The notes under the pieces are model-generated. The model worked only from the letters and a program-made list of their open reading frames with translations. It did not search any database and was not told the origin of the DNA. A stretch of DNA of 64,000 bases from Chryseolinea lacunae (GTDB taxonomy: Bacteria; Bacteroidota; Bacteroidia; Cytophagales; Cyclobacteriaceae): NCBI RefSeq assembly GCF_016735595.1, contig NZ_JAERRB010000003.1, positions 113,401-177,400 on the forward strand. The letters are read 5' to 3'. Position 1 is the first letter of the stretch; each line of letters opens with the position of its first letter. This document shows positions 1 through 339 of the stretch, one piece after another. The position numbers were made by a program, and so were the translations under genes.

Positions 1-204
1 ATATGAGCCCACGAAAGTATTAAAAAGAAAAGGCGATCTTTCGAATCGCCTTTCTTCTAGTAGCGGGGACAGGACTCGAACCTGTGTCCGCCAGCTGGCG
101 GATATGAGCCCAACGAACGTATCAAAAAAGAAAAGGCGATCTTTCGAATCGCCTTTCTTCTAGTAGCGGGGACAGGACTCGAACCTGTGTCCGCCAGCTG
201 GCGG
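1..204 (-). repeat. Tandem relics of the tRNA-fMet 3' half plus terminator (two copies, the first cut by the window edge)
   Basis: Two units begin at 1 and 102, and a third copy of the pattern begins at 205 and runs into the intact tRNA, giving a period of about 101-103 bp. On the minus strand each unit carries the end of the D arm, the 5' half of the anticodon stem and the CAT-containing loop, then a 16-bp palindrome, then an intact T arm and acceptor 3' strand, then a hairpin terminator (stem 29-37/45-53 in unit 1, 132-140/148-156 in unit 2). The acceptor 5' strand and most of the D arm are missing, so no complete tRNA can fold from these units. They appear to be duplications of the functional gene's 3' half with its terminator. 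Unit 1 is slightly decayed relative to unit 2. More copies may lie left of the window. Confidence 0.85.
87..102. repeat. 16-bp perfect palindrome inside a tRNA relic (copy 1)
   Basis: The sequence TCCGCCAGCTGGCGGA equals its own reverse complement. It sits exactly where the intact tRNA-fMet has the 10-nt stretch ACCCAAAGGT, between the anticodon loop and the T arm. An identical copy lies at 190-205 and a diverged hairpin version at 399-414. Confidence 0.9.
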
Positions 205-205
205 A
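190..205. repeat. 16-bp perfect palindrome inside a tRNA relic (copy 2)
   Basis: Identical to the copy at 87-102 and in the same position relative to the flanking tRNA sequence. The exact 103-bp offset shows that it travelled with the tandem duplication or was inserted before it. Confidence 0.9.
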
Positions 206-225
206 TATGAGCCCAACGAACGTAT

Positions 226-258
226 CAAAAAAGAAGAGGCGATCTTTCGGATCGCCTC
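226..258 (-). terminator. Rho-independent terminator of tRNA-fMet
   Basis: A 9-bp stem (236-244 with 250-258) with a 5-nt loop, followed on the minus strand by a T-rich run. It lies 9 nt after the 3' end of the intact tRNA and is the ancestor or sibling of the hairpins in the two upstream relic units. Confidence 0.85.
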
Positions 259-266
259 TCTCTAAG

Positions 267-339
267 TAGCGGGGACAGGACTCGAACCTGTGACCTTTGG
301 GTTATGAGCCCAACGAGCTACCAACTGCTCCACCCCGCG
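267..339 (-). tRNA. Initiator tRNA-fMet (anticodon CAT)
   Basis: A 73-nt cloverleaf reads from 339 down to 267. The anticodon loop is CTCATAA. Three features mark it as the initiator rather than an elongator: three G:C pairs next to the anticodon loop (GGG/CCC), an A11:T24 pair in the D stem (GAGC/GCTC), and no Watson-Crick pair at the end of the acceptor stem (C1 opposite T72). The T loop is TTCGAGT with stem ACAGG/CCTGT. CCA is not encoded. It delivers formyl-methionine to the P site. It is the only complete tRNA in the array and has its own terminator downstream and a candidate promoter at 546-553. Confidence 0.95.

Follow-up and report, generated by a model that had tools for sequence, protein, structure and literature searches.

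Hairpin-marked tRNA gene relics and a small GIY-YIG nuclease gene in Chryseolinea lacunae: the possible footprint of a homing-type mobile element

The stretch of DNA analysed here (the window; 64,000 nucleotides, C23:113401-177400 of the 7.9-Mb genome of Chryseolinea lacunae) begins with an array built around the gene for the initiator tRNA. A first-pass annotation had placed an intact tRNA-fMet gene at 267-339; the gene is indeed intact, but both ARAGORN and Rfam position it at 266-339 on the minus strand. It is the only initiator-type gene among the CAT tRNAs found in the genome (150 of 268 candidates were scored), and a DNA search of the genome yielded no second initiator tRNA gene. The following features were recognized within the window.

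545..577, minus strand: stretch TTG..TACTTTTG upstream of the left relic, which we take to be promoter-like
390..451, minus strand: left relic, consisting of the tRNA 5' half, anticodon, hairpin and start of the T arm, with the 3' half lost (sequence comparison)
399..414, minus strand: hairpin TCCGCCGAGGGGCGGA within the left relic (palindrome pattern)
266..339, minus strand: intact initiator tRNA-Met, anticodon CAT (ARAGORN; Rfam tRNA, 66.1 bits)
236..258, minus strand: terminator hairpin of the intact tRNA (sequence, inverted repeat)
163..225, minus strand: right relic unit 1, consisting of a short 5' stretch, anticodon, hairpin, T arm and acceptor 3' strand (sequence comparison)
190..205, minus strand: hairpin TCCGCCAGCTGGCGGA within right relic 1 (palindrome pattern)
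133..155, minus strand: terminator hairpin of right relic 1 (sequence, inverted repeat)
60..122, minus strand: right relic unit 2 (sequence comparison)
87..102, minus strand: hairpin within right relic 2 (palindrome pattern)
30..52, minus strand: terminator hairpin of right relic 2 (sequence, inverted repeat)
1..20, minus strand: right relic unit 3, a stub cut by an N run that ends at the window edge

Read along the minus strand, the promoter-like stretch, which is common to relatives, is followed by the left relic, the intact tRNA, its terminator, two 3'-half relics with terminators of their own, and the stub. Positions 22-124 and 125-227 are 100% identical; the repeat reported previously with a period of 101-103 bp is real, and its period is exactly 103 bp. 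In every relic unit read, a TCCGCCnnnnGGCGGA-type hairpin follows the anticodon and replaces tRNA bases, so that AACCCAAAGGTC of the tRNA has become ATCCGCCnnnnGGCGGAC, with small variants in older units. The units had been interpreted as broken initiator-tRNA genes in an order that exceeds random decay, and both points are borne out. Their breaks fall at one hairpin-marked place. The array is larger than had been described, as the earlier description lacked the left relic at 390-451, the hairpin replacement after the anticodon, and the GIY-YIG open reading frame (ORF) described below.

As had also been noted, the window edge cuts the array. Beyond the stub at 1-20, relic 3' ends continue into the neighboring DNA; in locus L008 (C23:110401-114400) they are found at +103, +206, +407, +510, +613, and +716 from the tRNA. 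The window edge coincides exactly with the end of a run of 98 Ns (L008 2903-3000), which may be masked sequence or a gap in the assembly. Since the step from +206 to +407 is twice the usual one, a further unit is implied inside this run. Hence, there are at least seven downstream right units of 103 bp (six read, one implied in the N run) plus one decayed unit. An age gradient along the window's array was considered but proved weak: the values, 0.89 beside the tRNA and 0.84 for the outer units that could be read, do not change monotonically. Just past the array, 1.0-1.3 kb to the left of the window, lies a small GIY-YIG ORF.

L008 2455-2493: outer, decayed unit
C23:112138-112389 (L008:1738-1989), minus strand: GIY-YIG ORF, 83 amino acids (Pfam)

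GIY-YIG is the sole Pfam match of the 83-amino-acid protein (E 6e-17), and among the three matches to PF01541 in the genome it is the only short one, the others residing in frames of 602 and 459 amino acids. The key Tyr, Tyr, Gly, Arg, and Glu residues are present in 138-139 of 140 proteins (a set that includes a few duplicate contigs). The median dN/dS is 0.08 and all 13 pairs retained fall below 1 (28 pairs were formed, and 15 with saturated dS were dropped); by these comparisons the ORF is under purifying selection, and the nuclease has evidently been kept functional. Its nearest solved relatives by sequence are UPF0213 proteins and the structure-specific nuclease Slx1 (1ywl, 1zg2, 7wme), and the protein amounts to a bare catalytic domain without an extra DNA-binding domain. 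A REP/RAYT or IS200/IS605 origin was rejected at the ORF level, the linked ORF being GIY-YIG by its only Pfam match and not a Y1 transposase. By their record titles, 78 of the proteins stem from Bacteroidota (63), Balneolota (8), Ignavibacteriota (4), Rhodothermota (1), Fidelibacterota (1), and Cloacimonadota (1); their tree, built from few alignment columns, needs eight label changes, as compared with at least five and with 14.7 in shuffles, a result that falls short of demonstrating horizontal spread. Carriage by phages was rejected as well: none of 99 stretches with the pattern in viral contigs holds a relative of the ORF by tblastn. Phage records gave three weak matches to the GIY-YIG ORF and plasmid records 12 distant ones, all below 60% identity.

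Other tRNA genes of C. lacunae carry comparable arrays. The elongator tRNA-Met gene (L009) is accompanied by a single left relic and, on the right, three units of 127-128 bp whose junction, CAT|ATCCGCC..GGCGGAC, is the same as that at the initiator array. About four copies in decay lie downstream of tRNA-Thr(TGT) (L025), their hairpin being located in the D-arm region. In L082 (G000:C23:740000-758000), tRNA genes cluster together with tRNA-like pieces, and the TCCGCCAGCTGGCGGA palindrome is present in two of these. In the genome as a whole, the palindrome occurs at 29 places, against one for the reversed control pattern, and is thus not due to chance; many of these places are intergenic and away from tRNAs. 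Several of the intergenic palindromes distant from tRNAs (L026-L036, L088, L089) have a flank like GAGGACTTGGAGCGG, as if they were part of another dispersed repeat.

The search pattern for the Met hairpins requires the outer four pairs (TCCG..CGGA), so that only the inner two pairs provide a test of base pairing. In 123 rows from 105 loci (the rows are related, and a few contigs are represented twice, e.g., L124/L146 and L131/L191), these inner pairs are complementary in 241 of 246 cells, while 2000 shuffles gave a mean of 197 and a maximum of 208. Compensating changes hence preserve the stem of the Met hairpin. An alignment whose rows had been selected for perfect stems was kept out of these counts. 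Relics at non-Met tRNAs often bear other hairpins. The order tRNA, ORF, 3' relic was present in 60 of 120 loci surveyed in relatives, and 54 of these 60 contain a perfect stem of at least six pairs; stems beat shuffles at p <= 0.05 in only 31 of the 60 because the regions are short. Variants of the palindrome, TCCGTC..GACGGA for example, escaped the pattern employed in the layout survey of relatives. As to its role, the hairpin may represent a disarmed target, prevent the relic from folding like a tRNA, or serve the nuclease as its substrate.

These data bear on the idea that the host maintains the relics as functional RNAs, be it as decoys, regulators or precursors of tRNA fragments. The relics do retain the T arm, the acceptor strand, and terminators, the hairpin stems covary, and a Met relic of L009 folds better than all 200 shuffles (z -3.68). 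The folding of the fMet relics, which had been suggested as a possible source of short 3' tRNA-half RNAs, is in contrast no better than that of many shuffles (z -1.64 and -0.45), in a test in which the intact tRNA itself reaches only z -1.76; moreover, outer units decay, and relics matching the exact hairpin-bearing Met pattern are patchily distributed, occurring in 29 of 390 genomes of the order (C. lacunae included; 25 of them in its family; control 0). We therefore regard a host function of the relics as very improbable. In a scan of eight loci for known RNA families, tRNA was the only family to reach its gathering score at the arrays, two Thr relics being among the matches; mascRNA-menRNA, tmRNA, and Plastid-ycf2 matched below threshold, and L167 holds a TPP riboswitch away from the array. 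The mascRNA-menRNA match, to a family of tRNA-like minihelices, concerns the Met relic at L009 1576-1645 (33.2 bits versus a gathering score of 42.5).

In named genomes, a profile of seven proteins of the ORF type detected 209 relatives, and the analysis continued with the best 80. Among these best 80 of 209, a called intact tRNA lies near the ORF in 68 loci: in 61 the tRNA is upstream and on the same strand (60 Met, one Val), six have a tRNA-Met downstream, and one has a tRNA-Asp (L171) that appears unrelated. A hairpin-bearing right relic is present in 44 of the 68 loci and an upstream left relic in 20; these counts omit the 12 loci without a called intact tRNA, several of which lie at contig ends. 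Four of the omitted loci (L161, L196, L209, L223) keep a Met 3' half, L181 keeps an Asn 3' half, and L154 holds a degenerate, uncalled tRNA-Met. In relatives, the GIY-YIG ORF sits between the tRNA and the relic units, and the recurrent order is tRNA, terminator, GIY-YIG ORF, hairpin-bearing 3' relic. The plan is clearest in Longitalea luteola (L167), where the intact tRNA stands between three left units and three right units that each carry the ORF, and the ATG of the ORF comes after the T-run of the terminator. Left and right units are equal in number at this locus but not in general, and in Dawidia soli (L144) the right units retain the whole 5' half.

Looking for the same array in related genomes had been put forward as a check, and the layout is found in other genomes. 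It recurs in independent assemblies, one of them a single contig (G001, L121), and the assembly artefact that had been entertained as an alternative can therefore be ruled out. The ORF profile matches in 37 of 59 genomes (C. lacunae included), at up to seven places in each. Forty further small GIY-YIG ORFs were obtained from the best 63 rows of profile matches, after skipping 10 rows of loci already examined and merging tandem neighbors; six places (G028:C18, G035:C12, G010:C143, G019:C89, G027:C19:236442, and G038:C14) were left out of the 40. A same-strand tRNA called by ARAGORN lies within 400 bp in 31 of the 40, as compared with an expectation of about 0.4% per ORF under a uniform tRNA density. 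The remaining nine have no tRNA nearby, and two of these hold tRNA fragments. The isotypes found near the ORFs comprise Met, Asp, Pro, Arg, Asn, Leu, Val, Ser, Glu, Thr, Ala, and Lys, plus one Met relic called as SeC (L248).

Variants of the plan were also noted. In four loci of Ignavibacteria (L158, L164, L197, L202), the ORF is upstream of the tRNA and the hairpin lies 5' of the anticodon. L181, from Candidatus Tenebribacter davisii, displays the same plan at a tRNA-Asn(GTT) 3' half with the compensated hairpin TCCGGC..GCCGGA. In L127 (G020:C5:193000-201500), two relics with hairpins are about 3.8 kb apart, the GIY-YIG ORF sits at the far end, and the intervening DNA is possibly cargo.

At L161, L209, and L223, a tRNA-Met 3' half and an ORF unit stand without an adjoining 5' half, as if the gene had been split by a larger insertion. 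This appearance recalls the usual source of partial tRNAs, namely integrase-type islands and prophages that use tRNA 3' ends as attachment sites, according to the portion of the source at hand (PMC9897764). That the arrays are remnants of such elements is nonetheless highly doubtful: the recurring unit measures about 100-430 bp and has a GIY-YIG ORF only, its break is replaced by a hairpin, and 5' halves are kept in the left relics. No integrase gene was found in the units read, whose only ORF is the GIY-YIG one (the spacer between the units of L127 is outside this set).

Orthologous loci with and without relics provide a view of how the units came about. The flanks of G328 and G234 are 90% identical and agree up to GCAATCCGATT; there the intact tRNA of G328 starts, whereas G234 has 228 extra bases, the order being a decayed left relic (read from the alignment), a second left relic, and then the intact tRNA. 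The outer, decayed left relic of G234 starts exactly where the intact tRNA of G328 starts, and in this one pair the displaced left end matches that of the uninvaded relative. Compared with G005, C. lacunae possesses about 160 extra bases that carry the left relic, and at one orthologous locus G113 has only the right side and G334 only the left. Such presence and absence at orthologous sites argues for insertion rather than decay in place.

For the right side, the evidence on displaced ends is split. The terminator of the relic resembles that of the intact tRNA in 14 of 36 single-relic loci (z > 6), differs from it in 14 (z <= 3; L156 and L210 may be spurious relic calls), and is intermediate in eight. 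In three of eight multi-relic loci (L144, L190, L220), the outermost relic terminator differs while the inner ones agree. Comparison of close relatives (L233 and L234, in which no intact tRNA was called, were left out) did not settle the origin of the right ends.

Near-identical units and terminators within many arrays would fit a passive origin, with unequal crossing-over producing tandem copies of tRNA genes that then decayed and the GIY-YIG ORF carried along as a passenger. So would the genome G015, which has tandem intact-tRNA arrays without the ORF: at L132 and L139 (G015:C1) Glu-fMet pairs, a fivefold Met array and Met-Val pairs recur with fixed spacing, and the GIY-YIG profile has no match in this genome. 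Duplication followed by decay does not, however, account for a hairpin at one place with compensating changes, for left relics with only the 5' half beside right relics with only the 3' half, or for the association of the ORF with tRNAs of many isotypes, and we judge it improbable as the origin of the arrays. Unequal recombination, which the first-pass annotation had offered as an alternative, may well alter the number of units but leaves the nuclease, the hairpin, and the left relic unexplained.

We favor, with a probability of roughly 0.6, the reading that a small mobile element of the homing type, which targets tRNA genes and restores the tRNA when it inserts, has left the array as its footprint. 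The sole protein of the element would be a stand-alone GIY-YIG nuclease that breaks the tRNA gene, in the Met type presumably next to the CAT anticodon, and recombinational repair from an element-bearing copy would insert the element. A downstream insert would supply a replacement 3' half, terminator, ORF, and hairpin, and an upstream insert a leader plus a replacement 5' half; on either side, an intact tRNA would be rebuilt, and the displaced half of the target would remain as a relic whose presumed cut region has given way to the hairpin. This restored tRNA could then be hit again, and recombination between the direct repeats would allow units to stack on both sides. Units without the ORF, such as those of 103 bp in C. 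lacunae, would be amplified and persist too. The reading builds on what is observed, namely the anatomy and its recurrence, the tRNA linkage, the compensated hairpin stems, the selection on the ORF, and the presence or absence of units at orthologous loci; cutting, homing, the succession of events, and the function of the hairpin are inferred.

Several observations speak against the homing reading: the nearest solved relatives of the protein are UPF0213 and Slx1, and the protein consists only of the catalytic domain, which bears on how it would find tRNA genes; the right-end terminators give a split picture; left and right units generally differ in number; the palindrome also occurs at non-tRNA places; and nine of the 40 loci lack a nearby tRNA. 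Some of these facts would suit a different scheme, in which a structure-specific GIY-YIG enzyme acts on an extruded hairpin or branched intermediate in the relics and thereby moves or amplifies units, the intact tRNA gene never being cut. The kinship with Slx1, the single Pfam match of a protein without an extra DNA-binding domain, the replacement of tRNA bases by differing hairpins in relics of many isotypes, and the dispersal of the palindrome outside tRNA genes are all in line with it. On the other hand, it offers no explanation of the tRNA linkage, relics of the Met type always have the same segment replaced, and the stems, six pairs or longer in most relic loci, outperform shuffles in only the 31 of 60 mentioned above. 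Hairpin-directed mobility of this kind is in our view unlikely, though it deserves more weight than the other alternatives.

Group I introns are found in the anticodon loop of tRNA-fMet genes of bacteria, and the tyrT repeats of E. coli are copies of the tRNA 3' end that lie downstream of the gene. The present arrays resemble the tyrT repeats in the latter respect, but to our knowledge no nuclease ORF or hairpin is known from them. With the group I introns in bacterial tRNA genes they share the association of nuclease-linked elements with tRNA anticodon regions, as far as the available part of the source extends (PMC3984707). The tRNA here is whole and uninterrupted and hence, unlike a gene with a group I intron, requires no splicing; searches for group I introns gave no match at E <= 0.1 in eight loci and none at the gathering score in the window.

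Another parallel is SegB of phage T6, a free-standing GIY-YIG homing endonuclease encoded, in T-even phages, beside tRNA genes like the ORF studied here; in the accessible text, cutting by SegB and recombination lead to tandem amplification of tRNA plus segB units, for which the catalytic residues are needed (PMC13096335). SegB belongs to a phage and to a 718-bp unit with a full-length tRNA-Tyr, whereas the C. lacunae array is chromosomal, and the passages available from that report describe neither a hairpin-bearing relic nor a rebuilt target, both of which are part of our reading of the array (PMC13096335). Replacement of a gene end has a parallel in fungal mitochondria, where, by the extracts of the source at our disposal, endonuclease ORFs carry a replacement gene end (Allomyces atp6; Glomus atp6, atp9, cox2, and nad3); there, too, a nuclease-bearing insert replaces the end of an essential gene and the native end is displaced as a relic (PMC3630166). 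The fungal targets in these extracts are mitochondrial protein genes, with LAGLIDADG enzymes in atp6, while those considered here are tRNA genes of bacterial chromosomes, where the unit is far smaller and the relic contains a hairpin (PMC3630166). The fungal-type order of whole gene, nuclease ORF, and displaced end is present in the 60 of 120 and 44 of 68 loci reported above. For UPF0213 and Slx1, the closest solved relatives, the part of the source available makes no mention of a linkage to tRNA genes (PMC1564403). Engineered cleave-and-rescue drives likewise cut an essential gene and supply a working copy, and differ, on the excerpt available, in being engineered, whereas here the working copy would be rebuilt at the target itself (PMC7951863).

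Our search of the literature, most subscription papers being outside it, found no description of such arrays. We tentatively propose, at somewhat less than even odds, that they represent an undescribed large superfamily of Bacteroidota and neighboring phyla: tRNA-gene homing elements of about 350 bp, among the smallest autonomous mobile DNAs, with nuclease lineages matched to tRNA genes and the hairpin as the mark of a disarmed target. They would constitute a natural cleave-and-rescue system on essential tRNA genes, and nested relics such as those in the window would record past invasions. If true, this would account both for tRNA-fragment arrays and for many small ORFs that carry no annotation beyond that of a GIY-YIG nuclease; a selfish nuclease would persist in an essential tRNA gene by rebuilding that gene, as a natural counterpart of the engineered cleave-and-rescue designs. 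What such nucleases do can be tested directly by means of an 83-amino-acid protein and short stretches of target DNA. ARAGORN names hairpin-bearing Met relics tRNA-SeC(tca) or tRNA-??? (L248 1152-1230; L144 at +254 and +643 from the ORF), and automatic annotation may therefore list relics as genes.
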